Positions 2,260 through 26,794 of a stretch of DNA of 64,000 bases are shown in pieces. Numbering within the stretch: position 1 is the first letter of the stretch; each line of letters opens with the position of its first letter. The position numbers and the translations under genes were made by a program. Source of the DNA: Parvibaculaceae bacterium Mf 1.05b.01 (lineage in GTDB: Bacteria; Pseudomonadota; Alphaproteobacteria; Parvibaculales; Parvibaculaceae); assembly GCA_000509225.1 (NCBI GenBank), contig BAOK01000001.1, positions 1,054,001 through 1,118,000 of the forward strand, written 5' to 3'. The notes beneath the pieces are model-generated. The model saw only the letters and a list, made by a program, of their open reading frames with translations. It was not told the origin of the DNA and searched no databases.

Positions 2260-3422
2260 GAGTGTTTTGCCAACCTTTCGAACCCTGCCTCAAGGTCCGT
2301 GATCAAGTCCTGAGGATCTTCGAGCCCTGCATGGATGCGGATGAGGGGTCCTTCCGGCGCCCATTTCGTGGCCGTTCGATTGCTGGTGGGGTCTGCGGGG
2401 ATGATCAGGCTTTCATAGCCGCCCCATGAATATCCCATGCCAAAGAGTTCCAGATCATCAAGCATGGCAGCAACGGCTTTGTCACTCACTGGTTTGAGGA
2501 CGACACCAAACAGGCCACAGGCGCCGCTAAAATCTCTTTTCCAGATTTCATGGCCGGGGTCTGTCGGCAAAGCCGGATGCAGCACCCGGGAAACTTCGGG
2601 CCGGTCTTCAAGCCATTTGGCGAGAAAGATGCCCGTCTCCATATGCCGGTGCAATCGAACGGAGAGTGTCCGGAGGCCGCGGAGCGCAAGGTAAATGTCG
2701 TCCGGTCCAGCAGTGATGCCAATTGCACCATGGTTTTTGATCGTCGCCCGCCAGACACTTTCATTGGTTGTGATGGTGCCCATCATCACATCCGAATGCC
2801 CGACAATATATTTCGTCGCAGCCTGAATGGAGACATCTGCACCAAGAGCGAAAGGATTGCAGAAGAGGGGGGAGGCCCAGGTATTGTCCATGATGACAAG
2901 CGCGCCTGCGTCATGCGCTGCTTTGGCAATCGCTGGGATGTCCTGCATCTCAAAAGTCTGTGACCCTGGCGCTTCAGTATAAACGACACTGGTCTCCGCT
3001 CTGATCAGGCTCGCAATGCCAGGTCCGATGACCGGGTCGTAATATTCAACATCAATGCCGTACCGCTTGAGAACAACATCGCAAAAGGTGCGCGTCGGTC
3101 CGTAGACACTGTCGGTGACAAGAACGTGATCGCCGGCTTTCAAGTGGGCGAGGAGTGCGATCGAACAGGCCGACAGGCCAGAGGGCGTCACGAGGGTGCG
3201 ATATCCCCCCTCCAGTTCAGCGACCGCATCCTGAAAAGCGAAGGTTGTCGGTGTTCCTCGACGGCCATATGTGACCTCGGCGTCGCGGGCGTGTAGGGCT
3301 GCCACACTTGGATAGAGGATGGTTGAGGCGTGATAGACGGGGGGGGTGATGACCCCGTGATTATTATGGGGATCTCTGCCGGTTGTGACGATTGTTGTGT
3401 CTTGATGTTTCTTTTTGGTCAT
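2256..3422 (-). CDS. metC: Cystathionine beta-lyase (PLP-dependent Cys/Met metabolism enzyme)
   Basis: Predicted to cleave cystathionine to homocysteine, pyruvate and ammonia in methionine synthesis. It is a 388-residue fold-type I PLP enzyme. The Schiff-base lysine is K204 in ATKYIVGHSD, the phosphate-binding loop is around TPSGLSACS (79-87), and the PLP-ring aspartate lies in VIMDNTWASP (177-186). The presence of the ITPPVYHAST start and the YGRRGTPT motif fits the MetC subgroup better than MetB or MetZ, though the reaction cannot be proven by eye. A GGCGGA-like ribosome site lies directly before the ATG. The stop overlaps the modA start, an unusual operon partner for a molybdate transporter. 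Confidence 0.88.
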   Translation of the reverse strand: MTKKKHQDTTIVTTGRDPHNNHGVITPPVYHASTILYPSVAALHARDAEVTYGRRGTPTTFAFQDAVAELEGGYRTLVTPSGLSACSIALLAHLKAGDHVLVTDSVYGPTRTFCDVVLKRYGIDVEYYDPVIGPGIASLIRAETSVVYTEAPGSQTFEMQDIPAIAKAAHDAGALVIMDNTWASPLFCNPFALGADVSIQAATKYIVGHSDVMMGTITTNESVWRATIKNHGAIGITAGPDDIYLALRGLRTLSVRLHRHMETGIFLAKWLEDRPEVSRVLHPALPTDPGHEIWKRDFSGACGLFGVVLKPVSDKAVAAMLDDLELFGMGYSWGGYESLIIPADPTSNRTATKWAPEGPLIRIHAGLEDPQDLITDLEAGFERLAKHS

Positions 3423-3570
3423 ATTCCGCCACTCATAGACTTATGGTCGCCGCTCCTAGTGTCACAGCCGACTTCGTTGTAAGAATAGGGGGTGGCGGCC
3501 TGTAGCAAAAGAGCTATAGAGCCAAAGTCAGAGTTCAATACTGAGTTAGGCGCGTTTGAGGGGAGATTTC

Positions 3571-4689
3571 ATGAACAATCGGCTTTTGCCAGCGGTTTTG
3601 GCCCTGGTTGTCGGGCTTTTGGCCGGCTTTCTGCTGTATCCAATGTTTGCAGGTGGTGATGAGGCTGCACCGGCTGTTGCTGCCAGCGATGACGCAGATC
3701 CGCAGGCTGAAGCGGCCCCGCTTCCCGTTGTAACGAGCCGGTCGACCCTCGACCTTGTGCGTGAGCGAGGCTATGTGCGCTGCGGCGTTAGTCAGGGCCT
3801 ACCCGGATTTTCCAATCCCAATGATTCAGGTGACTGGAGCGGCATCGATGTTGACCTCTGCCGAGCTGTCGCCGCTGCTGTTTTTGGGGACGCGGATAAA
3901 TCCCGTTATACGCCTCTGTCAGCGAAGGAACGATTTACAGCCCTGCAATCTGGTGAGATTGATGTGCTGACCCGCAACACGACCTGGTCCTTGACCCGTG
4001 ATACTGCACTTGGTCTCGATTTTGTCGGCATCAATTATTATGACGGTCAGGGATTTATGGTTCGCAAAGAACTTGGTGTGAAGAGTGTTATGGAGCTGGA
4101 TGGCGCGGTTGTCTGCACGAATACGGGCACCACGACCGAGCTCAACGTTGCTGACTTTTTCCGTTCCAACGGCCTGGCTTACTCAATCGTCGCATTTGAA
4201 AAATCAGACGAAGTGGTTGCCGCCTATGATGCCGGCCGCTGTGATGCCTTCACGACCGATGCATCCGGTCTTTACTCCGAACGGCTGAAGCTCGCGGACT
4301 ACAATGATCATGTTGTGCTGCCCGAAATTATTTCCAAGGAACCGCTTGGACCTGCCGTGCGCCAGGGTGATGACCAATGGGCTGATATTGTTCGCTGGTC
4401 GCTCTTCGCCATGGTTGAAGCAGAAGAGCTTGGTGTGACGTCGAAAAATGCTGGCGACATGCGTACGACGCAAAACCCGGCGATCCGTCGGTTGCTGGGT
4501 GTTGAAGGGGCTTTCGGCCAGAATCTCGGTATCCCCAATGACTGGGCGTACAAGATCATCACGCAGGTTGGGAACTACGGAGAGTCTTTTGAACGGGGTG
4601 TTGGCGTGAACACGCCTCTCGGCATTCCTCGGGGGCTTAATGCCCTCTGGAAGGATGGCGGCTTGCAATATTCGCCACCCGTACGCTGA
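3571..4689 (+). CDS. aapJ: General L-amino-acid ABC transporter substrate-binding protein AapJ
   Basis: Receptor of an AapJQMP-type polar amino acid importer; 372 residues, about 30 longer than many AapJ. The ATG at 3571 is preferred over an in-frame TTG at 3556 because a GAGGGGA ribosome site sits six bases before it. A strongly hydrophobic segment (about residues 5-25) is followed by an Ala/Asp/Pro-rich linker to about residue 55. The linker leads into the SBP_bac_3 domain starting LDLVRERGYVRCGVSQG, with GIDVDLCRAVAAA and RFTALQSGEIDVLTRNTTW as family signatures. The segment could be a cleaved signal or a membrane anchor. It is first in an operon with aapQ, aapM and aapP. Confidence 0.93.
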   Translation: MNNRLLPAVLALVVGLLAGFLLYPMFAGGDEAAPAVAASDDADPQAEAAPLPVVTSRSTLDLVRERGYVRCGVSQGLPGFSNPNDSGDWSGIDVDLCRAVAAAVFGDADKSRYTPLSAKERFTALQSGEIDVLTRNTTWSLTRDTALGLDFVGINYYDGQGFMVRKELGVKSVMELDGAVVCTNTGTTTELNVADFFRSNGLAYSIVAFEKSDEVVAAYDAGRCDAFTTDASGLYSERLKLADYNDHVVLPEIISKEPLGPAVRQGDDQWADIVRWSLFAMVEAEELGVTSKNAGDMRTTQNPAIRRLLGVEGAFGQNLGIPNDWAYKIITQVGNYGESFERGVGVNTPLGIPRGLNALWKDGGLQYSPPVR

Positions 4690-15593: not shown

Positions 15594-15893
15594 GTGAGCC
15601 TCCCAGCGCGTGTTTCGGAGAGACTTTTGGCGTTTATCAAGTTTAATGGACGGAAGATTCCTCTGCCAGGATCAGCGCCGATTCGCATGGGAGCTGGTGT
15701 TCTTCTGGTCATCGGCGGAATTTTAGGATTTCTCCCGATATTGGGTTTCTGGATGATCCCGCTCGGCATCCTGTTTCTGTCAGTGGATCTGCACTCTGTC
15801 CGGCGTTGGCGGCGTCAGATAGAGGTGCGGTTGGGCCGCCGCAGGCAGCGAAAACGGGAAGAACGACGATCAAGCGGTCTCGACAGACGGTAG
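15594..15893 (+). CDS. Small inner-membrane protein of unknown function
   Basis: About 99 residues with a hydrophobic hairpin (near residues 32-62: GAGVLLVIGGILGFLPILGF then WMIPLGILFLSVD) followed by a strongly basic Arg-rich tail. The pattern resembles small PGPGW-type membrane proteins, but the match is not firm. The GTG at 15594 has GGAGAGG just upstream; a GTG at 15576 is the alternative. Its last 24 bases overlap the 3' end of the deacetylase gene in antiparallel, so the two mRNAs are complementary there. Confidence 0.65.
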   Translation: MSLPARVSERLLAFIKFNGRKIPLPGSAPIRMGAGVLLVIGGILGFLPILGFWMIPLGILFLSVDLHSVRRWRRQIEVRLGRRRQRKREERRSSGLDRR

Positions 15894-16925
15894 AAGGCTC
15901 GCCAGCGCAAACGGCATGCCGCTCATCAACACTTCCAGCATCCTCAGATCCTGATAGTCACCGTTCAGAGATAATCTGGGGATGGCATAGGGGTTGATCC
16001 CATGCGCCTCCGTTAGAAAGCCCTTCTGGGTGGTCACGGCGGTATCGAACCCTAGAAATTGTGCCAGCTCATACTCGCGAGGGCCTGCCGATCCGCTATC
16101 GCCATACGGGAAGGCCAGATGACGCGGCCAATCCCCGGTTTCCTGCTTTATTCGGTCTGCGCCTTCAATAAGTTCGCGGCGGGATTCTGCTTCAGGCAGC
16201 CTGGAAAGGGCAAAATGATCGACCGTATGTGCCCCCAGCGAGCAATAGGCATGGTTGGAGAGCTCTCTCGCTTCAGCCCATGTAAGGGCACAATCACGGG
16301 TGAGTTGCCTCATATCGACACCACAATGTCGGGCAAGGTCTCTTATTGCGATCCTCTGGTCGAGCTCTGGAAGGTTCCGTAAGGGCCAATAGAGGGTCTC
16401 AAAGGCATTTTGCTTCTGCTCAGTAGAGTCCATAACAAGCTCGTATTTTGTGCCTGCCCAACCCCAGCACAGCTCGCTTTTGGTCCGTATTGCTGCTTCT
16501 AACCCCATCCACCAGAGATCAAGTGTTCCGTCTGGCATGCCTGAACTCAGGTAGACAGTGAAGGGCGCCCTATGTTTGGCAAAAATGGGTGCTGCAAATT
16601 CAAGATTGTCTTTGTACCCGTCATCCATGGTGAAGACGGCAAACTTTCGGTCAAAGTTGTGCTGCTGCAGGCGTCGGTGAGCCTCGTCCATGCTCACAAG
16701 ATCATAATCCAGAGCGGAGACGGTCGTCAGGACTGCGTTGAGATATTCCGGCGTGATCTCCAAGAGCGCGTTGGGGGCAAATCCATTGGTCTCTGAGGCA
16801 GGTCGAACTCTGTGCAGCATGAACACAATGCCAACGCCGGACAGGCTGCGAGGGCTCAGGCTGTGGAGACCTGATTTGTGCAGCGTCAAGAGTGCTGAGC
16901 GAAACAGTGTCGATTTCAGGCTCAT
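15870..16925 (-). CDS. Polysaccharide deacetylase (NodB-like, CE4) family protein
   Basis: Probably removes acetyl groups from a polysaccharide or its precursor. It is 351 residues long. CE4 motif 1 is TMDDGYKDN (about residues 98-106, with the paired Asp for catalysis and metal binding) and motif 2 is HTVDH (about 229-233), supplying the two metal-binding His. FMLHRVRP near residue 35 and the FPYGD motif near 270 also fit the family. There is no clear signal peptide, so the site of action is uncertain. It lies divergently beside the tandem acyltransferases, which supports membership of the polysaccharide locus. Confidence 0.88.
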   Translation of the reverse strand: MSLKSTLFRSALLTLHKSGLHSLSPRSLSGVGIVFMLHRVRPASETNGFAPNALLEITPEYLNAVLTTVSALDYDLVSMDEAHRRLQQHNFDRKFAVFTMDDGYKDNLEFAAPIFAKHRAPFTVYLSSGMPDGTLDLWWMGLEAAIRTKSELCWGWAGTKYELVMDSTEQKQNAFETLYWPLRNLPELDQRIAIRDLARHCGVDMRQLTRDCALTWAEARELSNHAYCSLGAHTVDHFALSRLPEAESRRELIEGADRIKQETGDWPRHLAFPYGDSGSAGPREYELAQFLGFDTAVTTQKGFLTEAHGINPYAIPRLSLNGDYQDLRMLEVLMSGMPFALASLLPSVETA

Positions 16926-16986
16926 GGCGGTTGTATTTGCATCCGATCAGTGTGCAACGACCGATACACCCAAAGGTGCATGCCCC

Positions 16987-17037
16987 TTGCAACGGTTGGC
17001 ATGGTCGGCAGTTTGACTGTCTTTAATTGAGAAATGA
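16987..17037 (+). promoter_or_regulatory. Duplicated upstream element, copy 1
   Basis: A 51-base stretch that matches the region upstream of the second acyltransferase gene at 40 of 51 positions without gaps. Conserved cores are TTGGCATG, CTGTCT and AATTGAGAAA. It ends 70 bases before the preferred ATG at 17108, and copy 2 ends 71 bases before its ATG. It is a candidate promoter or operator that was duplicated with the gene and kept. Confidence 0.6.
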
Positions 17038-17107
17038 TTGCAGCACGTCAATTTGTGAAGCGTAGACGCGTTTCAGAATGAGACAGGTGCTCTTGAGGGA
17101 AGTTCGA

Positions 17108-18322
17108 ATGTCGCTTGGTTTTGATGAAACAGCGCCGCCAGGAGTCGGTAAAAGACAAAATGCTCGGCGCGTACCATTGGATGAGCGGGCATCCGTGCTT
17201 TTGTCAGTCCACACCGAATTCTCCACCGTTGAGGCGATCTGGAGGCAATTCGAAAAGACCGCAGACTGTTTTGCGTTTCAAGGCTTCGACTTTTTGGAGA
17301 CGTGGTATGAGCATATCGGCGTTCGAGACAATTTTGAGATTCAGATCGTCGTTGCCTGGGATATCAGCGCAAAGCCGCTCATGATCTTGCCCCTGGGGAT
17401 TGAGACAAGTGGCTTCGTGCGCTCACTTACCTGGCTGGGAAAAGGCGTTGCTGATTACAACGCGCCGTTACTCGCTCCTGGATTTACCGATCGTGTTGCC
17501 CCAGGCGAATTCTCACGTGTGTGGGACGATATTGTGGCGGCGTTGCCAAGCCATGATCTGATCGAACTCCTGTATCAGCCAGCGGAGATCGAGCGGCAGG
17601 CCAATCCATTTATGGAGCTTGCCACAGAGCTCAATGCCAGCGGGGCTCATATGACGATGTTGGGCGTCGATTTTGACGCTTACTATAAGGAAAAAAGGAA
17701 CGCCAAGGCGCGGAGCCACCTGCGCAATCGCCGGAAAAAGCTTGAGGCGTTAGGCGAAATTGCCTTTGTCCAGCCTGACACGGAAGAAGAACTCTACTTA
17801 TCCATTGAAAAGCTTGTTGAGCTCAAGACCGCGTCATTGAACGCGATGGGCGCCAAAAATTTCCTGATGCAGCCTGGCTATGAGAGCTTTTACACCTCAC
17901 TGGCCACGAAACTGACCAACATTGGCGGTGTTCATGTTTCTCATTTGGAGGTGGGTGGAGAATATGTAGCTGGCATTTGGGGGCTCGTGCACAAACAGCG
18001 GTTTTACTACCTGCTCGCCAGCTATGACGGGCCAACCTATGGGAGCTACAAGCCGGGCGTTCAGGCCCTTGTCGAAACCATGCGCTGGGCGACTGGGCAA
18101 GGCATTAAGACGTTTGATTTCACCGTTGGCGATGAGAGCTACAAAAGTAAATGGTGTGAAATTCACATCGATCTCCACAACCATCTGGCGGCAAAGACAT
18201 TCCGTGGGTCCATAGCGCTGCTCAAGACCCGGTTGTTTCTCTCCGCCAAACGCAAAATAAAGCAGACGCCGGTCCTTTGGGACAGTTTCACTAAATTGCG
18301 GTCGCGGTTTCTAGCTAGATAA
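17108..18322 (+). CDS. CelD/BcsL-like GNAT (Acetyltransf_6) protein, copy 1
   Basis: A 404-residue protein with a GNAT/FemAB-related Acetyltransf_6 domain. It is of the type found with cellulose and exopolysaccharide loci, where it is thought to acylate sugars or precursors. Diagnostic stretches are FDFLETWYEHIG (about residues 60-71), RSHLRNRRKKLEALG (about 200-214) and the C-terminal FDFTVGDESYKSKWC. The ATG at 17108 is chosen over 17078 because GAGGGA lies seven bases upstream and because it aligns with the start of copy 2 (both begin MSL). The next gene, 159 bases on, is a clear paralogue over its whole length. Confidence 0.85.
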   Translation: MSLGFDETAPPGVGKRQNARRVPLDERASVLLSVHTEFSTVEAIWRQFEKTADCFAFQGFDFLETWYEHIGVRDNFEIQIVVAWDISAKPLMILPLGIETSGFVRSLTWLGKGVADYNAPLLAPGFTDRVAPGEFSRVWDDIVAALPSHDLIELLYQPAEIERQANPFMELATELNASGAHMTMLGVDFDAYYKEKRNAKARSHLRNRRKKLEALGEIAFVQPDTEEELYLSIEKLVELKTASLNAMGAKNFLMQPGYESFYTSLATKLTNIGGVHVSHLEVGGEYVAGIWGLVHKQRFYYLLASYDGPTYGSYKPGVQALVETMRWATGQGIKTFDFTVGDESYKSKWCEIHIDLHNHLAAKTFRGSIALLKTRLFLSAKRKIKQTPVLWDSFTKLRSRFLAR

Positions 18323-18359
18323 CCCTCTGGAACCAGCGCGGTCATTGTGTGCACGGTTT

Positions 18360-18410
18360 TTGCAAATCTTGGCATGAACCGCGGTTTGGCTGTCTACAAT
18401 TGAGAAAAGA
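18360..18410 (+). promoter_or_regulatory. Duplicated upstream element, copy 2
   Basis: Second copy of the 51-base element found before the first acyltransferase gene. It lies in the gap between the paralogues and ends 71 bases before the ATG at 18482. The conservation of both sequence and spacing suggests that each gene has its own promoter or that a regulator binds both. Confidence 0.6.
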
Positions 18411-18481
18411 CAGAAAAGCTGGGGTTTCTGGAACACAAGAGTGTGCCAGATCGAAACACGAGATATCAGGAAGACACCCCC

Positions 18482-19693
18482 ATGTCCCTTTCTGCACAGG
18501 AAATCAAGTTCGGTTCATTGGTCGATGGTTCGGCCGAAAAAACGATGGGCGAAGGTCGCCCATCCGTTCTTCTGTCTGTCCACAATGAGTTTTCATCCGT
18601 GGAAGCTGTCTGGCGCCGGTTTGAAAAAGTGGCAGATGGTTTCGCCTTCCAGACCTTCGATTTCCTGGAAACCTGGTTTGAGCATATTGGCTCGAAAGCT
18701 GACATTGAGCTTCAGATCGTGGTCGCCTGGGGCTCCAAGGCCAAGCCTTTGATGATTTTGCCGTTGGGGATTGAACAGACCGGTACTATGAGAAAGCTCT
18801 CCTGGCTCGGGGGCGACCTCAATGACTATAACGGCCCGCTTCTCGCTCCAAACTTCCTGGAACATGTTGGTCCCGGCGAGTTCGCGAAGCTATGGGAAGA
18901 CATTCAGGCCGTCCTGCCTGCCTATGATATCGCTGAGCTGATGCGTCAGCCCGCCATGATTGACGGTCAGCCGAACCCCTTCCTTGAGCTGGACACAAAG
19001 CTCAATGCAAGTGGTGCGCATATGACCTCAATGGGCGGTGACTTTGATGCCTATTACGATGAAAAGCGGACTGCCAAGGCAAAGCGGCATTTTCGCAGTC
19101 GTCGTAAGAAACTCGAAGAAATGGGTGAGACCGTTTACGTGCACCCCAAATCAGCGAATGAGATTGAGGCATCCGTAGAGAAGCTTGTTGAGCTCAAATC
19201 TGCAGCACTGAAAGCAATGGGCGCAAATGATTTCCTGGCAAAGCCCGGCTATGCGGACTTTTACAAAGCCCTTACCCTGAAATCCGGCTCAGAAGGCATT
19301 GCGCATGTTTCCCATATGGAAGTCGCTGGCGACTATGTTGCTGGCAACTGGGGACTGGTGCACAAAGGACGTTTCTACTATCTGCTTGCAAGCTATGACG
19401 GCCCTAAGTTTGGCAAATTTGCTCCTGGTGTGCAGGCGCTTGTAGAGACCATGAAATGGGCTGTTGGTCGAGGCGTGGAGACGTTTGACTTCACCATTGG
19501 AGATGAACGCTACAAGCATGAATGGTGTGAGACCAAGATCGATCTTCACGACCATCTGTCAGCGCAGACACTCAAGGGACAGGTCGTATTGATCAAAGCG
19601 CGGATGCTCCTTGCGGCCAAACGGACCATCAAGCAGACGCCAGTGCTCTGGGAAAGTTTCACAAAGCTTCGCGAAAAATTTGCAGCGAAATAG
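18482..19693 (+). CDS. CelD/BcsL-like GNAT (Acetyltransf_6) protein, copy 2
   Basis: A 403-residue paralogue of the preceding gene, collinear from the first to the last residue. Shared blocks include FDFLETWFEHIG, LVELKSAALKAMGAND, YYLLASYDGP and KQTPVLWESFTKLREKF. The regions around KAKRHFRSRRKKLEEMG and FDFTIGDERYKHEWC correspond to the acyl-donor and catalytic part of the domain. The ATG at 18482 has AGGAAG eight bases upstream; the frame is open to 18443. Differences concentrate in the first 25 residues and in the loop around residues 205-230, so substrates may differ. It converges with the wzc-like gene. Confidence 0.85.
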   Translation: MSLSAQEIKFGSLVDGSAEKTMGEGRPSVLLSVHNEFSSVEAVWRRFEKVADGFAFQTFDFLETWFEHIGSKADIELQIVVAWGSKAKPLMILPLGIEQTGTMRKLSWLGGDLNDYNGPLLAPNFLEHVGPGEFAKLWEDIQAVLPAYDIAELMRQPAMIDGQPNPFLELDTKLNASGAHMTSMGGDFDAYYDEKRTAKAKRHFRSRRKKLEEMGETVYVHPKSANEIEASVEKLVELKSAALKAMGANDFLAKPGYADFYKALTLKSGSEGIAHVSHMEVAGDYVAGNWGLVHKGRFYYLLASYDGPKFGKFAPGVQALVETMKWAVGRGVETFDFTIGDERYKHEWCETKIDLHDHLSAQTLKGQVVLIKARMLLAAKRTIKQTPVLWESFTKLREKFAAK

Positions 19694-19703
19694 ATGGTGA
19701 GAT

Positions 19704-21911
19704 TCAGACGTCAGCAGTGTCGTCGGTGAGCCGGCGGTACTGCCGCCGGTCTACGCCTGTCAGGAAGAGGCCGACACGCCGTGTTGAGGCGGCGGTGAGT
19801 GCTTTAAGGCCACGCATTACTGATCGTCTGTTGGTTGCGCCCCATTTAACGCACATGACGGTGACGTCGGTTAGTTGGGACAAAACTGGCGCTTCCGACG
19901 CGGAATGAACGGGCGGTCCATCGATCACCACATAGTCATAATTTTGCACAAGTGCATACATCATCCATGTCATCCGGGACGATCCAAGCAGAGCGGTTGG
20001 ATTGGACACCTGGCTGCCAGCCTGTAGCACATGCAGCGGAGAAGCATGATCACGGACAACCACGCGCTCAAACTCTACGCGGCCGCTGAGGACCTCTGAC
20101 AGCCCCCAGGTGGGATGCAGGCCAAGTGTTTGATTGACACCTGGCCGACGCAGGTCAGCGTCAATGAGGAGGACGCGATACCCGCTCTGGGCCATTAAAC
20201 GTGCGAGCCCGCCTGCGACACCACTTTTCGCTTCGCCATCAACCGAAGAGGTAACGAGCAGGGTTCTGGCTGGCTTCCCGTTAACGCGGGCCAGCAAGAG
20301 ATTGGATTGAAGGCGCCGCAGCGCTTCAGCAATGTGTCCGTAGGGATTTCGGACCGTGTTGGCGGCGATACCAGCTGATGATTTAGCGCCACCAATCGCG
20401 GGTAGTGTTCCAAGGAAAGGCATGCCTGTCTGGCGTTCGATCTGTTCGGCCGTCCGAAAGCCTGGCGCCATTGCCTCTATCAGAAACACAAGGGCGACGG
20501 CGCCAAATGCTGACCCGATGATCGCAAGGATCATGGCTGATTTTCGGTTGGGTGCGGCAGGGCTTGTTGGAACCGGTGCTCTTGAGACGATGGTTGCGTT
20601 TGCAACAGAGCCATCAGCTGAGGCCCGAGCACTTGCCGCTTCATAGCGCCCAAGGAATTGCTCGAGCAATGTGCGGTTTGCCACTGCTTCTCTTTCCAGA
20701 GCACGAAGTTCGACTTCCTGCTGACCAAGTCGGGCCATTCGACCTTTCAAGCGGCCAACTCTCTCGCTCAGCGTCCGAACGCGCTCATTGGATATGTGCG
20801 CTTCGTTTTCCATACTGCGGATGAGTTTTGCGACCTCACGGCCAATCTGGAGTCTCAGATCCTGCAGGTTAGCCTGAGACGTCCGCATGCGTGGGTGAGA
20901 CGGCAGAAGTGTTGCCGACATTTCGGCGATCTGCGCCCTTAACTGTACCTCTTGCTGTCGAAGGTTTTGGATGAGGGGAGATGCCAACACCTCGGCAGTC
21001 GTGTCGATGGCCCCTTCCGTATCCACTAGATCTTTGGCGAGTGATAGACGCGCCATGACCGACGTGCGATCGGCCTGGGCCTGTACCAATTGTGCGCTGA
21101 GTTGCGAAAGCTCTTCACGAGGGAGAGTGGTGTTGTTTGCTGGAAACAGGCCGGTACGGCCACGGAACTGCTCGACGGCAGCCTCCGACAGTGCAACCTC
21201 ATCTCGAAGGTTACCAATTTGCTCTTTCAACCATGCCGTGGCTTCAGCGTTTACGGCATTACCCGCGGCAACCTGTTGGGCAATGTAGATTTCTGCATAA
21301 GCATTCGCGAGAGCTGCGGCTCTCTTTGCGTCAGGTGACGTGAACCGGATCGCGATGACGCGGCTCTCTCCGCGCCGGTAAACTGAGAGGCTTTCCAACA
21401 CGTTTTCGGTGATCGCTGCAACAGAGGCGCGCCTTGGTTTCGATGTCACACCAAAGATCTGGAGCAGCTGGGAAATGGTTCCGCCGCTGCGGAGTGCTGG
21501 ATTGAATTCTGGAAGCTGGTGCAGGTTCAGTTTTCGAACCAAGGCGGGTACAAGTGCGCCCGAGGTCAGGATTTGAACTTCACTTTCAATCGAAATCGGA
21601 TCGGCCTGCTGCGGCCTTTCTGGTGTGTCGAAGCGAGAAATCTCTCCAGAACGCGGCTTAACGGAGACCTGGGATTCTGCAACATAAGTCGGCTGCATGG
21701 TCAGAACCCAAAATGCCCCGATTGTCAGAAAGATCACAAAGAGCAGCAGAAGACGTTCTTTGCGAGACCAGATAGCCCTCAAAAGATCCCATGGGTCGAT
21801 ATCGCTATTTGTCGGTGCGCGGCGCCGATCGCCGAAATTGGCGTCAGCGCGGGGTGCAGCCTGAGACGGCGCATACCCGGTCATGGGAGGTGTGGCTGAC
21901 GTGTCGCTCAT
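19704..21911 (-). CDS. Polysaccharide co-polymerase / BY-kinase-like protein (Wzc/ExoP type)
   Basis: Inner-membrane protein of about 735 residues that would control chain length and export of a polysaccharide together with the Wza-like protein. Order: first membrane segment near residues 48-70, long periplasmic coiled-coil region with Wzz and GNVR-type motifs, second membrane segment near 465-485, then a cytoplasmic BY-kinase domain. Walker A' (VLLIDADLRRP) and Walker B (YVVIDGPPV) are canonical. Walker A reads DGEAKSG instead of PGEGKST (about residues 557-563), and the C-terminus has one Tyr instead of a Tyr cluster. The ATG at 21911 is preferred; a GTG at 21935 is possible. Confidence 0.88.
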   Translation of the reverse strand: MSDTSATPPMTGYAPSQAAPRADANFGDRRRAPTNSDIDPWDLLRAIWSRKERLLLLFVIFLTIGAFWVLTMQPTYVAESQVSVKPRSGEISRFDTPERPQQADPISIESEVQILTSGALVPALVRKLNLHQLPEFNPALRSGGTISQLLQIFGVTSKPRRASVAAITENVLESLSVYRRGESRVIAIRFTSPDAKRAAALANAYAEIYIAQQVAAGNAVNAEATAWLKEQIGNLRDEVALSEAAVEQFRGRTGLFPANNTTLPREELSQLSAQLVQAQADRTSVMARLSLAKDLVDTEGAIDTTAEVLASPLIQNLRQQEVQLRAQIAEMSATLLPSHPRMRTSQANLQDLRLQIGREVAKLIRSMENEAHISNERVRTLSERVGRLKGRMARLGQQEVELRALEREAVANRTLLEQFLGRYEAASARASADGSVANATIVSRAPVPTSPAAPNRKSAMILAIIGSAFGAVALVFLIEAMAPGFRTAEQIERQTGMPFLGTLPAIGGAKSSAGIAANTVRNPYGHIAEALRRLQSNLLLARVNGKPARTLLVTSSVDGEAKSGVAGGLARLMAQSGYRVLLIDADLRRPGVNQTLGLHPTWGLSEVLSGRVEFERVVVRDHASPLHVLQAGSQVSNPTALLGSSRMTWMMYALVQNYDYVVIDGPPVHSASEAPVLSQLTDVTVMCVKWGATNRRSVMRGLKALTAASTRRVGLFLTGVDRRQYRRLTDDTADV

Positions 21912-22149
21912 AACCTGTTTCTGTTTCCCGCACACACAGATATCGACAGGTCCGAAAATCCGGACTTGTTCACGAAGCCTGAGTAGACGGTGTTTAGGTA
22001 ACGGAATGCTTAACAGAGACCTGAAGCGTCAATGAATTCCTGCCTTTAGATGGTTTACGCAAGTTTTGAAGGTGGCCATCTGGTCGGAAAGTCTTAACGA
22101 ATTCGGTCTAGCGTGGAGCCTAATCTCAGGATCAAGAAAAAGGCCCGCT

Positions 22150-22704
22150 ATGAGCCGGTTTTTTATTATTGCAGCGATTATGGGCCTGTTAGGGGCCTGT
22201 TCGAATACAGGCATTCTTTCGGAAATGCCGGTCGCCGGGCAGAACGCACCCTATCGGCTGGATAGTGGCGACCGCCTTAGGGTCATTGTCTTCGGACAGG
22301 AAGACCTAACGGGCGAATATGCAGTAGACGGCGCGGGCGAGATTTCAATGCCGCTCATCCAAGCCGTGCAGGCAAGGGGACTGACGCCTGACGAACTGGA
22401 AATTTCGCTGGTGAGTGTGCTGTCTCAAACCTTGCTGCGGGACCCGAGTGTGAGCGTGGAGGTTCTGAACTTCCGACCTTTCTTCATTCTTGGTGAGGTA
22501 AGCAGCGCCGGGCAGTATCCCTTCGTTGCAGGCATGACGGTGAACACGGCTGTGGCGATTGCCGGTGGGTACACGCATCGCGCAAACACCAATGTTGCCC
22601 GCGTAACCCGTAACCTTGGCGATCGCATTGTCGAGTTAGGTGTAGAGACGAGTGCAGCCATTCGCCCTGGCGATACCATTCTCATCCGCGAGAGGTATTT
22701 CTGA
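22150..22704 (+). CDS. Polysaccharide export lipoprotein, Wza-like
   Basis: A short (184-residue) Wza-family protein with a lipoprotein signal: hydrophobic residues 3-15 end at the lipobox LLGAC (Cys near residue 17). The Poly_export motif YRLDSGDRLRVIVFGQEDL (about 33-51) and the SLBB-type segment FFILGEVSSAGQYPFVAGMTV are present. The usual C-terminal amphipathic helix of full-length E. coli Wza is absent, as in many alphaproteobacterial homologues. The ATG at 22150 is chosen because the signal sequence starts there and AAGG precedes it; the frame is open to 22066. It starts the plus-strand operon and is divergent from wzc. Confidence 0.88.
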   Translation: MSRFFIIAAIMGLLGACSNTGILSEMPVAGQNAPYRLDSGDRLRVIVFGQEDLTGEYAVDGAGEISMPLIQAVQARGLTPDELEISLVSVLSQTLLRDPSVSVEVLNFRPFFILGEVSSAGQYPFVAGMTVNTAVAIAGGYTHRANTNVARVTRNLGDRIVELGVETSAAIRPGDTILIRERYF

Positions 22705-22712
22705 GGTTTGTC

Positions 22713-23906
22713 ATGAGTACCCGCGTCCCAACACATCCTTTTCGAATTCTGCACTGCCTGCGTGCACCAGTGGGCGGTCTCTTCCGTCATGTCTGTGATC
22801 TTGCCAAAGCGCAAAGCGATGCTGGATACGCAGTTGGGGTGCTCTGCGCCGATAAGCCGAATGACAGGCAAACCCTTGAACGGATCTCAGAGTTGGCAAA
22901 ACATTGTGAACTGGGCGTCACCCGTATCGGCCTCGGGAGGATGCCTGGACTAAGCGATGTTAAAGCCCTGATGGCCACGACGTATAAGCTTCGCGAGCTG
23001 CAACCGGATGTGCTGCATGGGCACGGGGCCAAGGGTGGGCTGTTGGCGCGATGTGCATCAAGTTCCCAGCCAATTGCACGTGTCTACACGCCCCACGGTG
23101 GCAGCATTCACTATGCACCGAACAGTCCGGTGGGTTTTATGTTCGGATTGGCTGAGAGACTGATGCTCAAGCGGACTGACGGGCTCATTCTCGAATCTGA
23201 TTTCGCGCAATCTGTCTTCGAGCAACGTTTTGGCGACTTGCCGGCAAACACGCAGGTTGTCCACAATGGCCTTGCTGAAAGCGAGTTTGCTCCCGTTTCG
23301 ATCAAAAGTGATCCGGCAGATTTTCTATTCCTCGGCGAGATACGCGAACTCAAAGGCATTTACACACTCTTGGATGCGGTCGCAAAGATCGTAGCCCGGC
23401 GGCCTGTCACTGTGGATGTTGCCGGCGATGGTCCCGAGATGGCTGCGTTTGCCTCTGCTGTGGAGGCCCGGTCATTGTCTCACGCAGTGCACATTTTGGG
23501 GAAAGTTCCGGCGCGCGATGCTTTTGCGCGCGCCCGGGCCGTCCTGCTTCCCTCGCATAACGATTCATTCCCCTACGTCGCCTTGGAGGCAGCCGCGGCT
23601 GGCAAGCCATTGATCGCGACCTCCACGGGCGGCATTCCAGAGATATTTGGCCCTTTGGCCGACCGTCTGATTAAGCCCGGTGATGCCCAAGCATTGCAGG
23701 GGGCAATGGAGCAATTTCTTGAGAATGAGCCGGAATACATTCGTGACGCAGGTGATCTCCGCACACATGTAAGAAACCAGTTCTCTTTGCGTGCGATGGC
23801 AGGCGGAGTCACAGCCGTTTACGCAGACTCTGGATTGAAACAGCTCGGTGAACCAAACGGGCCCTCAAATATGACATCCCACGCAAAACTGGACGCAGCA
23901 GAATGA
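22713..23906 (+). CDS. Glycosyltransferase family 4 (group 1) protein
   Basis: A 397-residue GT-B glycosyltransferase, expected to act in the cytoplasm on a lipid-linked sugar. The N-terminal domain begins FRILHCLRAPVGGLFRHV (glycine loop of group 1 enzymes). The C-terminal nucleotide-sugar domain has FLFLGEIRELKGIYTLLDAV and the E-x7-E region LLPSHNDSFPYVALEAAAAGKP (split here). The next gene overlaps its stop by four bases. A TGAGG ribosome site precedes the ATG. The sugar donor cannot be deduced. Confidence 0.9.
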   Translation: MSTRVPTHPFRILHCLRAPVGGLFRHVCDLAKAQSDAGYAVGVLCADKPNDRQTLERISELAKHCELGVTRIGLGRMPGLSDVKALMATTYKLRELQPDVLHGHGAKGGLLARCASSSQPIARVYTPHGGSIHYAPNSPVGFMFGLAERLMLKRTDGLILESDFAQSVFEQRFGDLPANTQVVHNGLAESEFAPVSIKSDPADFLFLGEIRELKGIYTLLDAVAKIVARRPVTVDVAGDGPEMAAFASAVEARSLSHAVHILGKVPARDAFARARAVLLPSHNDSFPYVALEAAAAGKPLIATSTGGIPEIFGPLADRLIKPGDAQALQGAMEQFLENEPEYIRDAGDLRTHVRNQFSLRAMAGGVTAVYADSGLKQLGEPNGPSNMTSHAKLDAAE

Positions 23907-25462
23907 CAGACAGCCACCCAACACAACATGGTGCTCCGGCGGATGCGTCGATTGGATCCGATGTGTCGCCTCGAACATCTGGCGGGCGGTTTGATCGCGA
24001 AGGTCGCCCAACAGGACCAGTGCCAAAAATTGATCGCCGTTCAAAGGTTCAGTCTTCAATCTCGCCGACTGTCGTCAGAGGCACGCTGCGGCTGGTGGAG
24101 GCATTGGCGCTTATGAGCCTTGGGGCGGGAATTGCTTGGATCTATGTCGGTTCCCACATTTGGGAGGCGCTTGCCTTCTACGCTGTGCTCACCATCGGTC
24201 TTCCAATTGCCTATGTCCTGGCGAGTGATTTTTCCCGACTTTACCGTGTCGCTGTTTTGCAAATGCAGTGGGGAACTATTCGCTCCGCGTGCGCTACATG
24301 GACGGGTGTCTTCATTGTTGGGCTCATCTCTTCCGTTCTGTTGAAAGAGAGCGAGAGTCTTTCGCGCATTTGGCTTGCGGGATGGTTCCTTAGCGGCCTG
24401 ATTGGGATCGCGACTGTTCGGACAGTCGCGCATTCAATCATTGGTGACTGGGCAGAGCAGGGTAGGTTGCAGCAAAATGTGGTGTTGGTTGGCGGAGGCC
24501 AAACAGGACAACGCCTAATCGATGCTCTTAGAGACTCCGATGTGCACTACATCAACATATGTGGTGTTTTCGATGACCGATCGTCGGATCGGGCACCTGA
24601 AACAATCCAGGGCGTCAAAAAGCTTGGCAGCTTTGATGAGCTGGTTCGGTTTGCGCGCTCCAACAGGATCGACATGCTGCTTGTTGCGCTCCCCATGACA
24701 GCAGAGAGCCGAATGCTGGAGCTGCTGCGTAAGCTCTGGGTGCTGCCTGTAGATATTCGTCTGAGTGCTCTCGATTCAAGGCTCCGGTTCAAGTCAGGCA
24801 CATACAGCTATATTGGAAATGTACCCTTCCTTGATATCTATAAAAAGCCATTGACGGACTGGGACTATGTTGTGAAAACGGTTTCAGATCGGATCATTGC
24901 TGGAGCGATGTTGATCGCGTCACTTCCTATCTTCATCGGCGTCGCGATTGCGATCAAACTGGACAGCAAGGGGCCTGTTTTCTTTAAACAGCGGCGATAT
25001 GGATTCAACAACGAACTTGTCGAAGTCTACAAGTTCAGAACCCTTTCTCATGCCAACCAGGACACAAACGCTGAAAAACTTGTCACAGCCGATGATGACA
25101 GAGTCACAGGAGTTGGACGGTTCCTTCGACGTTCCAGTATCGATGAATTGCCGCAGCTTATCACTGTCCTCAAAGGCGACATGTCGATGGTCGGACCGCG
25201 CCCCCATGCGGTTCTTGCGAAAGCAGCAGACCAACTCTATGGCGATGTGGTCGACGGCTATTTCGCACGACATCGCGTAAAGCCCGGCATTACCGGCTGG
25301 GCACAGATCAATGGGTGGCGTGGTGAAACCGACACGGACGAAAAAATCCGCCGACGGACGGAATATGACCTCTTCTACATCGATAACTGGTCTCTTCTCT
25401 TTGACCTTTACATCATCCTGCGGACCCCATGGGCGCTGCTAAAGGGCGAAAACGCTTATTGA
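23903..25462 (+). CDS. Polyprenyl-phosphate sugar-1-phosphate transferase (WcaJ/ExoY-like)
   Basis: Starts assembly of a repeat unit by moving a sugar-1-phosphate (often glucose or galactose) onto undecaprenyl phosphate. It is 519 residues long. An N-terminal multi-helix domain (about residues 50-170) is followed by a nucleotide-binding-like domain with VVLVGGGQTGQRLIDAL (about 194-210). A further membrane segment lies at about 333-353. The catalytic C-terminal domain carries KFRTL, RRSSIDELPQL, GDMSMVGPRPH and KPGITGWAQINGWRGET. All catalytic motifs look intact. It overlaps the GT4 gene by four bases and precedes the ligase gene by nine. Confidence 0.92.
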   Translation: MTDSHPTQHGAPADASIGSDVSPRTSGGRFDREGRPTGPVPKIDRRSKVQSSISPTVVRGTLRLVEALALMSLGAGIAWIYVGSHIWEALAFYAVLTIGLPIAYVLASDFSRLYRVAVLQMQWGTIRSACATWTGVFIVGLISSVLLKESESLSRIWLAGWFLSGLIGIATVRTVAHSIIGDWAEQGRLQQNVVLVGGGQTGQRLIDALRDSDVHYINICGVFDDRSSDRAPETIQGVKKLGSFDELVRFARSNRIDMLLVALPMTAESRMLELLRKLWVLPVDIRLSALDSRLRFKSGTYSYIGNVPFLDIYKKPLTDWDYVVKTVSDRIIAGAMLIASLPIFIGVAIAIKLDSKGPVFFKQRRYGFNNELVEVYKFRTLSHANQDTNAEKLVTADDDRVTGVGRFLRRSSIDELPQLITVLKGDMSMVGPRPHAVLAKAADQLYGDVVDGYFARHRVKPGITGWAQINGWRGETDTDEKIRRRTEYDLFYIDNWSLLFDLYIILRTPWALLKGENAY

Positions 25463-25471
25463 GGCATTGCT

Positions 25472-26794
25472 ATGGATGGTTGGCAGATTGATGTTGGAGG
25501 GACAAGGGGTGCGGGTCGCACGGACCAGCATACGTTCTGGACGCTCATTTGCAGCGCTCTGCTATTCCTGACTCTCACAACCGGCTTCTACGTCAGCACC
25601 CAATCAAGCGGTTCGTCATCAACACCCGCGCCCTATGATCTGCTTTTGGTGCTAACCATGGGCTTCACCTTTGCGGTAGGGCTCCGGTTTCCAAAAGACC
25701 TTCGTCTGCCCGCAATCCTCTGGGGACTGCTTTTGCTGGGATATGCGTTTTCCGGTATCGGCGCACTTTACATTGAGAGGGTTACTGACTTTCTTTTGGT
25801 GTCGACCTATCTCGTATTGAGCATGCTGTTCTTTGCTGCGCTTGTTGTGGCAAATCCAAAACGGAATTTGGCGATCATCTGGTGGGCCTACACGCTGTCG
25901 GCGGCAATCGCCGCGGCGATTGGCTGCGCAGCCTATTTCGGACTGATGCCTAACGCTGAAAACTTCCTCAAGTTCAGCCGGGTTCGCAGCACATTCAACG
26001 ATCCGAATGTCTTTGGACCCTTTTTGGTTGGCCCGATATTGTTTCTGATCTACCGGCTTTCAATGTCGTCTCAGCGACGTGACCTTCTCCTGGTGCCGGT
26101 TGTTGGGCTGCTATTTCTCGCGATTCTTCTCAGCTTCTCACGCGGCGCCTGGGGCAATCTCATTTTCGCAGGTGGCATCTTCCTGGTATTGACCTGGATG
26201 ACGGCAACATCGGCGCGGCAAATTGCGCGGCTCACGCTAGCCGTTTCTTTGATTGGCGTTTTAGCTGCTTGTGTTGTGGCCTGGGCCTTGTCTTCGGATG
26301 TGGTCTCGGAGCTCTTCGAAGAGCGCTTTTCTCTCACCCAGTCCTATGATGTTTCGGAGGAGGGCGGGAGGTTTGCGGTACAAGAGCAAGCGATTCAGAC
26401 TGTCATTGAGAAGCCCTTTGGTATCGGCCCCTCGCAATGGGCAAAGATCATTGGGGTCGATCCCCACAATGTCTATCTCAACGTTTTTCTGGCGGGGGGA
26501 TGGCTGTCAGGCATCGCATTTGTCGGACTCATGCTCTCCACCATGATCCTGGGTTTCAGGACCTGCTTTGTCGGGACGTCATTTCAGGGCCTTCAGATTG
26601 TGGCGGTCGCTACTTTTACTGCCCATGCGGCCGAAGCCTTTATCATCGACATCGACAATTGGCGGCACGTTTATCTTTTGATGGGGCTGGTCTGGGGTGG
26701 GATCGCCTATGTCCGGATCAATTCGGAGAGTCCAAACAGTGTGGCGCAGCCTGTTGGCGCTGCTGCGGGACGAGTGGACGGCTTCGCAGCCTAG
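25472..26794 (+). CDS. O-antigen ligase / polymerase family membrane protein
   Basis: A 440-residue protein with about ten to eleven hydrophobic segments and a large periplasmic loop near residues 275-335, the layout of the WaaL/Wzy group. The segment FSRVRSTFNDPNVFGPFLV (about 168-186) and GIGPSQWAKIIGVDPHNVYLN (split; about 306-326, with the His-Asn pair) match the Wzy_C/O-antigen_lig pattern. Ligase and polymerase cannot be told apart here. The context, with an initiating transferase and Wza/Wzc-like exporters, favours a polymerase. It is last in the operon. Confidence 0.85.
   Translation: MDGWQIDVGGTRGAGRTDQHTFWTLICSALLFLTLTTGFYVSTQSSGSSSTPAPYDLLLVLTMGFTFAVGLRFPKDLRLPAILWGLLLLGYAFSGIGALYIERVTDFLLVSTYLVLSMLFFAALVVANPKRNLAIIWWAYTLSAAIAAAIGCAAYFGLMPNAENFLKFSRVRSTFNDPNVFGPFLVGPILFLIYRLSMSSQRRDLLLVPVVGLLFLAILLSFSRGAWGNLIFAGGIFLVLTWMTATSARQIARLTLAVSLIGVLAACVVAWALSSDVVSELFEERFSLTQSYDVSEEGGRFAVQEQAIQTVIEKPFGIGPSQWAKIIGVDPHNVYLNVFLAGGWLSGIAFVGLMLSTMILGFRTCFVGTSFQGLQIVAVATFTAHAAEAFIIDIDNWRHVYLLMGLVWGGIAYVRINSESPNSVAQPVGAAAGRVDGFAA

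Follow-up and report, generated by a model that had tools for sequence, protein, structure and literature searches.

Tandem celD acyltransferase genes and their copied leader in a holdfast-like polysaccharide cluster of a Parvibaculaceae bacterium

This study concerns a stretch of 64,000 nucleotides (hereafter the window) from Parvibaculaceae bacterium Mf 1.05b.01 (GenBank assembly GCA_000509225.1, contig BAOK01000001.1, positions 1,054,001 to 1,118,000), in which two CelD-like acyltransferase genes, here called celD1 and celD2, stand in a row. We propose, with a probability of about 0.68 for the account as a whole, that they result from a genus-level tandem duplication of an HfsK/CelD-type gene of FemX fold that lies in a Wzy adhesin-type cluster and carries its own old leader. 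The kinds of gene are ordinary and the leader is the surprising part: it was found at one gene only, predates the duplication, contains a hairpin that covaries within the genus, and is unequally divided between the copies. No description of the leader or of the pair was found in the open-licence literature searched, nor of the leader in Rfam 15 (no match over 16900-18600 at expect values [E] up to 5), and the celD leader is apparently undescribed.

The gene pair and the age of its duplication

As the original prediction had stated from the sequence, both open reading frames code for full-length paralogues. Each carries a single Acetyltransf_6 domain (PF13480; E 4.1e-28 and 98.8 bits for CelD1, E 1.3e-25 and 90.6 bits for CelD2, for a cut-off of 22), and 249 of the 404 columns of their global alignment are identical. 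An in-frame ATG is also present ten codons upstream of celD1, and the start was taken as 17108 because in G004, a genome of the same genus, the frame is open only from the equivalent start. The divergence between the copies had been located in the first 25 residues and around residues 205-230. The first region is indeed the least alike (6 of 25 alignment columns identical), while the second does not stand out, columns 201-225 (13/25) being equal to columns 126-150 and 351-375 (13/25 each) and the next weakest full block being columns 251-275 (10/25). The reported upstream likeness was recovered exactly: the best ungapped match of 51 bases pairs 16987-17037 with 18360-18410, has 40 identical positions and ends about 70 bases before each ATG, beyond the best value of 30/51 reached in 300 shuffles of the second region. 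Moreover, a 23-base core pattern allowing up to three mismatches occurs only at the two celD upstream sites, in the window (0 expected) as in the whole genome.

The age of the duplication was assessed in a genus sample of seven genomes (G000, the genome of the window, to G006) and a family sample of 40 genomes. Five of the seven carry the pair (G000, G003-G006), and G001 and G002 have a single copy at the same locus. A CelD match at E 1e-60 was obtained in 36 of the 40 family genomes, the best match of each genome outside the genus being 38-45% identical. In a midpoint-rooted tree of 35 CelD proteins, where flags were raised for some very long branches of the outgroup, the ten duplicated copies group together (99/97), with the single-copy protein of G002 and then that of G001 outside. 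The simplest reading is still a single duplication within the genus, later than the divergence of G002. Conserved or recent was the question that the prediction had left to a tree, and the answer is an old pair, kept in all five sampled genomes of the duplicated branch.

Third-codon identity between the copies is 37-43% across the five pair genomes (43% in G000), and the synonymous distance (dS) between them is 3.0-4.4 in the two genomes where it is computable and undefined in the other three. Since the duplication is old, dS saturated and third-codon identity 43%, the upstream match was kept by selection. A recent duplication or gene conversion as its source was rejected on the same third-codon figures and on the finding that leaders are closer to their orthologues than to their neighbour: the element is 71% identical between the G000 copies, 88-95% among four CelD2 orthologues, and 94-97% over 66 bases among four CelD1 orthologues (G000, G003, G004, and G006), the third codons of G000 celD1 being 53-72% identical to those of the other three. 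G005 is the least clear case, with 71% between its copies and 82-83% and 66-74% to the orthologues. Between G000 and its orthologues in G003, G004, and G006, the nonsynonymous distance (dN) is 0.06-0.13 for CelD1 and 0.04-0.06 for CelD2 for a dS of 0.47-1.99, and by these values both copies are under purifying selection.

The idea that the second CelD substitutes for a lost third acyltransferase (CelD-B) was suggestive only and was dropped. At E 1e-20 the five pair genomes show only two copies, G002 has a 26% relative and G001 only one match; the surroundings of nine second copies of the CelD-B type gave no match to cluster genes. G001 also has two more PF13480 matches on one contig (C42:62240-64785), separated by about 2 kb, which form another possible local pair.

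A leader made of two boxes and a hairpin

About 65 bases can be aligned across the leaders of genus and family, with box 1 followed by box 2, the core of which resembles AATTGAGAA (Table 1). In the 32 rows of alignment A3, box 1 has the invariant columns G3, C4, and A5 and, seven columns on, T12, T13, G14, and C15. R2, a sequence model made from 32 leaders, was run over the 40 family genomes and gave 39 matches (E 5e-15 to 9e-8) in 34 of them, all directly before celD by coordinates; the five pair genomes contribute two apiece and the 29 others a single one. Thirty-two of these, being in the model, match by construction; the other seven have E 4.3e-9 or better, six of them being close to model members. 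The element is older than the duplication because it also precedes single-copy celD in most of the family. Hence, the gene-plus-promoter duplication initially suggested is retained in that gene and element were copied together, and abandoned in that the upstream likeness is not a duplication relic alone. Loci with one copy, which had been named together with a lack of effect on acylation as a refuting case, do occur, as far as their presence goes, in G001, in G002 and in most of the rest of the family.

A wider regulon was considered and rejected, no strong site of the R1 or R2 searches lying apart from celD in the 40 family genomes: no such site was better than E 0.003 (R2) or 0.035 (R1), the sites scored in either search being those that passed a loose first look (131 per genome for R2 and 84 for R1). 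A run of R2 on loci L141-L145, L058, and L059 gave one partial match (E 0.1). The element is missing from two of the 36 celD genomes, G038 and G039, neither of which has a deacetylase gene adjoining celD. As far as seen, and within the limits of the search, the element appears private to celD or to the deacetylase-celD pair.

Two readings of the conserved block as something simpler were weighed. Its box 1 resembles the GG-N10-GC spacing, the spacing of GCA...TTGC fits sigma-54 and the genome carries a sigma-54 gene, so the block could be a sigma-54 promoter and nothing more. Such promoters are defined by GG at -25/-24, with a nearly invariant first G, and this G is absent in 32/32 rows of A3; sigma-54-like matches with up to two mismatches number 32 in the window versus 41.5 expected by chance, and box 2 and the hairpin would be left unexplained, all of which makes this promoter improbable. 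The other reading is a short upstream peptide coded by the leader and controlling celD translation. In the CelD1 block of G000, 16 codons can indeed be read up to the TGA in AATTGA, and the counterpart frame of CelD2 gives similar residues. However, the distance between the boxes differs by one or two bases among family members, which shifts this frame, and its stop is lost in the CelD2 leaders of G003 and G005 and comes earlier in those of G004 and G006 (by reading, no coding test), so that we give the peptide hardly any credence. Terminator-like matches in 16900-18500 are near chance (3 versus 1.8, standard deviation 1.5) and were not used. An RNA structure inside the 65-base block was also rejected, three pairs being invariant and none covarying.

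The hairpin lies between box 2 and the ribosome-binding site, and its genus stem has eight pairs (A1 columns 28-35 with 40-47). Pairing holds in 86 of 95 cells among 12 genus leaders; five leaders do not pair at 31-44, and the first copy of G005 (G005_c1) fits with a gap. Counted over 13 pairs, i.e., with a 5-pair outer helix, 86.5% of 155 cells pair with 16 two-sided changes, and the covariation score is reached by none of 500 shuffles; slid structures drop to 30-50% paired. The outer helix alone has one pair with a two-sided change and is not claimed. RNAalifold, run unguided, recovers the inner stem with three of seven pairs compensated. In a scan of all 8-pair helices with loops of 3-12, the celD hairpin ranks first (90.5% paired, 15 two-sided cells, four pairs), and its score is not reached by any best helix obtained when the leader columns were permuted 1000 times. 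Of four leaders folded singly, that of CelD2 has z -2.7 and the three others z -1.0 to -1.2. As pairing in the stem is kept while the letters change, the hairpin would be an RNA rather than a DNA operator.

Unequal division of the leader between the copies

All 18 bases of box 2 are kept in the CelD1 leaders of G000 and G003-G006, as they are in the leaders of the single-copy genomes G001 and G002, and box 2 is altered in each of the five CelD2 leaders. For G000, G003, G004, and G006, box 1 has a mean identity of 0.97 among the CelD1 leaders and 0.97 among the CelD2 leaders, the corresponding values being 1.00 and 0.80 for box 2, 0.78 and 0.95 for the hairpin, and 0.78 and 0.94 for the columns after it. 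Each copy thus keeps a different part of the ancestral leader strictly. This division fits two readings, either split regulation or a box 2 fixed by its service to the deacetylase. The deacetylase probably shares its control region with celD1 because only 50 bases separate its ATG from box 1 (16926-17107).

The second reading can be extended to a bidirectional control of the deacetylase and celD by boxes 1 and 2, the CelD2 element being a partly decaying remnant for want of a divergent gene at its side and the enzymes redundant or a dosage pair. It agrees with the distribution of the element, which apart from the CelD2 copy is confined to places where celD and the deacetylase face each other, G038 and G039 having neither an adjoining deacetylase nor the element, and its remnant part agrees with the changes of box 2 in all five CelD2 leaders. 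However, box 1, the hairpin and the 3' part are as conserved or more conserved within CelD2 than within CelD1 in the four genomes just named, so that overall the CelD2 leader is not in decay. We regard this alternative as quite possible, at somewhat under even odds; its bidirectional part is compatible with the duplication of celD with an old leader that we favor, and the two confidences overlap.

The enzymes, their cluster and the proposed role of the pair

An AlphaFold2 model was made for CelD2 from 34 sequences, and the fold result covers CelD2 alone. Its mean predicted local distance difference test score (pLDDT) is 89.2 and its predicted template modelling score 0.86, with a pLDDT below 50 for residues 1-25. 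The copies differ most in these residues, and their difference there need not concern catalysis. The best solved folds are FemX and FemA, of the aminoacyl-tRNA-dependent transferases (Z 20.3-21.0, over about residues 28-379), including the six listed W. viridescens FemX entries at Z 20.5-21.0 over 296-298 residues, followed by the tRNA-dependent Sbb17/Sba18 (Z 19.0-19.3), MprF-type proteins (about 14-16) and N-myristoyltransferases (about 14). Foldseek also places FemX first (E 2.2e-10, TM-score 0.56 by query length). CelD2 is thus predicted to have a two-domain Fem-like fold, at about 8-13% sequence identity to these proteins, and such a fold does not tell the donor. A sequence-profile search of the PDB gave one match at E 0.74, which was not used.

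Across 16 single-copy proteins 49 positions do not vary; CelD1 deviates from them at two, of which G297 has changed in each of its five copies, and CelD2 deviates at a single position (L279M). Fixed differences between CelD1 and CelD2 were found at 47 positions in four genomes, 18 of them apparently derived in CelD1 and 13 in CelD2 relative to G002, and several (CelD2 201, 202, 204, and 206) fall within a basic helix at 198-213.

The genes around the pair (Table 1) form a Wzy-type polysaccharide cluster resembling that of the holdfast. Wza, Wzc, an initiating phosphotransferase, a polymerase/ligase and a deacetylase, i.e., a holdfast-like gene set, are all present. The HfsE model NF050817 matches in the cluster at 323.6 bits, under its cut-off of 750, and HfaD (NF037936, holdfast_HfaD) gave no match in the genome of the window, the Caulobacter control being positive. 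Because HfaD is absent, the cluster is to be called holdfast-like and not a Caulobacter holdfast cluster. The adjoining deacetylase noted in the original prediction is a family feature: 18 of 20 family loci have the deacetylase, celD and wzc, plus wza and the GT4 gene where the stretch reaches, in the same order, and the two others (G038 and G039) have only celD of this set. In G038, the gene before celD (L058:7224-8246) resembles cupin/JmjC-type genes by eye and has no Pfam match. In the locus of G002, the phosphotransferase match (L045:2775-4321) is in two pieces, 2775-2987 and 2993-4321.

Table 1. Features of the celD locus (window positions)
Feature	Position	Strand	Remarks
Polysaccharide deacetylase (PF01522)	15870..16925	-	Divergent neighbour of celD1
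Box 1 of the celD1 element	16976..16992	+	GTGCATG...TTGCAA
Box 2 of the celD1 element	17017..17034	+	CTGTCTTTAATTGAGAAA; identical in five CelD1 and two single-copy genus leaders
celD1 leader hairpin	17056..17075	+	8/8 pairs including two G-U, 4-base loop
CelD1	17108..18322	+	PF13480 acyltransferase, 404 aa
Box 1 of the celD2 element	18349..18365	+	
Box 2 of the celD2 element	18390..18407	+	Changed in five of five CelD2 leaders
celD2 leader hairpin	18429..18448	+	7/8 pairs
CelD2	18482..19693	+	PF13480 acyltransferase, 403 aa, FemX-like fold in model
Wzz/BY-kinase type chain-length protein (Wzc)	19704..21911	-	
Polysaccharide export protein (Wza, Poly_export)	22150..22704	+	
GT4-type glycosyltransferase	22713..23906	+	
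Undecaprenyl-phosphate glucose phosphotransferase	23903..25462	+	TIGR03023 above cut-off
O-antigen ligase/polymerase type (Wzy_C)	25472..26794	+	

No Wzx-type flippase was found among the eight cluster proteins scanned (15870-26794). On another contig of the same genome (C1, about 277-281 kb; L145:9093-12624), a Wzx-type flippase gene is grouped with a Cupin_8 gene and a further PF13480 gene. The distance between celD and wzc in genus g4 is about 3.5 kb, and in the two loci checked (L051 and L052) this interval is occupied by a flippase gene, another PF13480 gene and a Cupin_8 gene; hence, the flippase module may have moved. Family f103 (G141, G227, and G299) has a cluster with two CelD relatives about 1.2 kb apart and a third PF13480 gene, and in G141 a Cupin_8 gene lies between the first two; the order there (L142:6963-14235) is celD-A, Cupin_8 gene, celD-B, flippase gene, third PF13480 gene and JmjC/cupin gene. 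Acyltransferases may travel with cupin/JmjC-type proteins.

The closest described systems are HfsK and its Caulobacter crescentus paralogues (CC2278 or CC2277, and CC1244), which share with the CelD pair a GNAT-type enzyme with a Fem-like fold, the presence of several paralogues per genome, a link to holdfast polysaccharide and a proposed joint action with a deacetylase, HfsH (PMC5362036, PMC8449245). HfsK and two paralogues affect the Caulobacter holdfast. Neither of hfsK and cc2278 complements the loss of the other, and HfsK has been proposed to acylate a holdfast sugar, perhaps at amines exposed by HfsH; such enzymes alter the strength of this bacterial glue, by a reaction described as unknown (PMC5362036). 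HfsK was also among the weaker adhesion mutants of Hershey and co-workers (PMC6372794). The Caulobacter paralogues, likened here by description and not by sequence, are scattered and about 30% identical, whereas the CelD pair is in tandem, about 62% identical and provided with its own copied leaders. The presence of several such acyltransferase genes in a genome is thus not new in kind. The uppABCDEF genes for the unipolar polysaccharide of Alphaproteobacteria are likewise a polar-adhesin gene set, compared by description only (PMC12727192). HfsK proper is characterized by cyclic di-GMP binding via R112 and C-terminal arginines and by membrane association; the basic C-terminus of CelD is conserved (K380, R381, and K384), which is only a lead toward binding of this type.

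In the model that we propose, celD was copied together with its old leader, made up of the two boxes and, directly upstream of the ribosome-binding site, the covarying hairpin. CelD1 and CelD2 would both be active transferases, acylating or aminoacylating a lipid-linked or polymer sugar, probably at amino groups bared by the adjoining deacetylase. The original suggestions that the copies may modify different residues, and that one polymer may be both acylated and deacylated, are plausible in view of the gene neighbourhood and of HfsK and HfsH in Caulobacter. The boxes would act in transcription and the hairpin in the mRNA, on translation or stability. With the ancestral box 2 kept by CelD1, and box 2 relaxed and the rest of the leader stricter in CelD2, the copies could be made at different times or levels, and the cell could tune the modification of its adhesin through them. 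In its fullest form, a gene-private RNA regulator (box 1, box 2 and hairpin) with a family-wide upstream part, split between a box copy and a hairpin-leader copy and tuning adhesin modification, possibly by aminoacyl transfer from tRNA onto the bared sugar amines, the model is doubtful.

Several points weigh against our account. Deletion of hfsK and both paralogues in Hirschia baltica was without effect on biofilm or holdfast binding, an hbal_1184 mutant showing other defects (PMC8449245). Concerning the leader, the strictness of box 2 on the deacetylase side may reflect service to that gene and not to celD1, no sigma-70 consensus promoter was found in 16900-18500, and the first look of the R1 and R2 searches was loose enough for weak further sites to be missed. 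As for the hairpin, its placement in the mRNA is inferred, and the covariation set comprises 12 leaders of the genus only, several of them nearly identical. Two measures are weaker, pairs with a change on both sides being reached by 8 of 500 shuffles and further pair types not being above shuffles (264/500), and three of the four leaders folded singly were not clearly more stable than shuffles. Concerning the tree, the position of G005_c1 on the CelD2 side has weak support (93/61), and the outgroup includes several of the very long branches already mentioned.

Many regulators serve several sites, and a control element that is conserved throughout the family and for which a single target gene was detected in each genome is therefore worth explaining. 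Moreover, with a common ancestor, one polymer cluster and different leaders, the celD pair would provide a clean test of whether such paralogues differ in substrate or in timing only.

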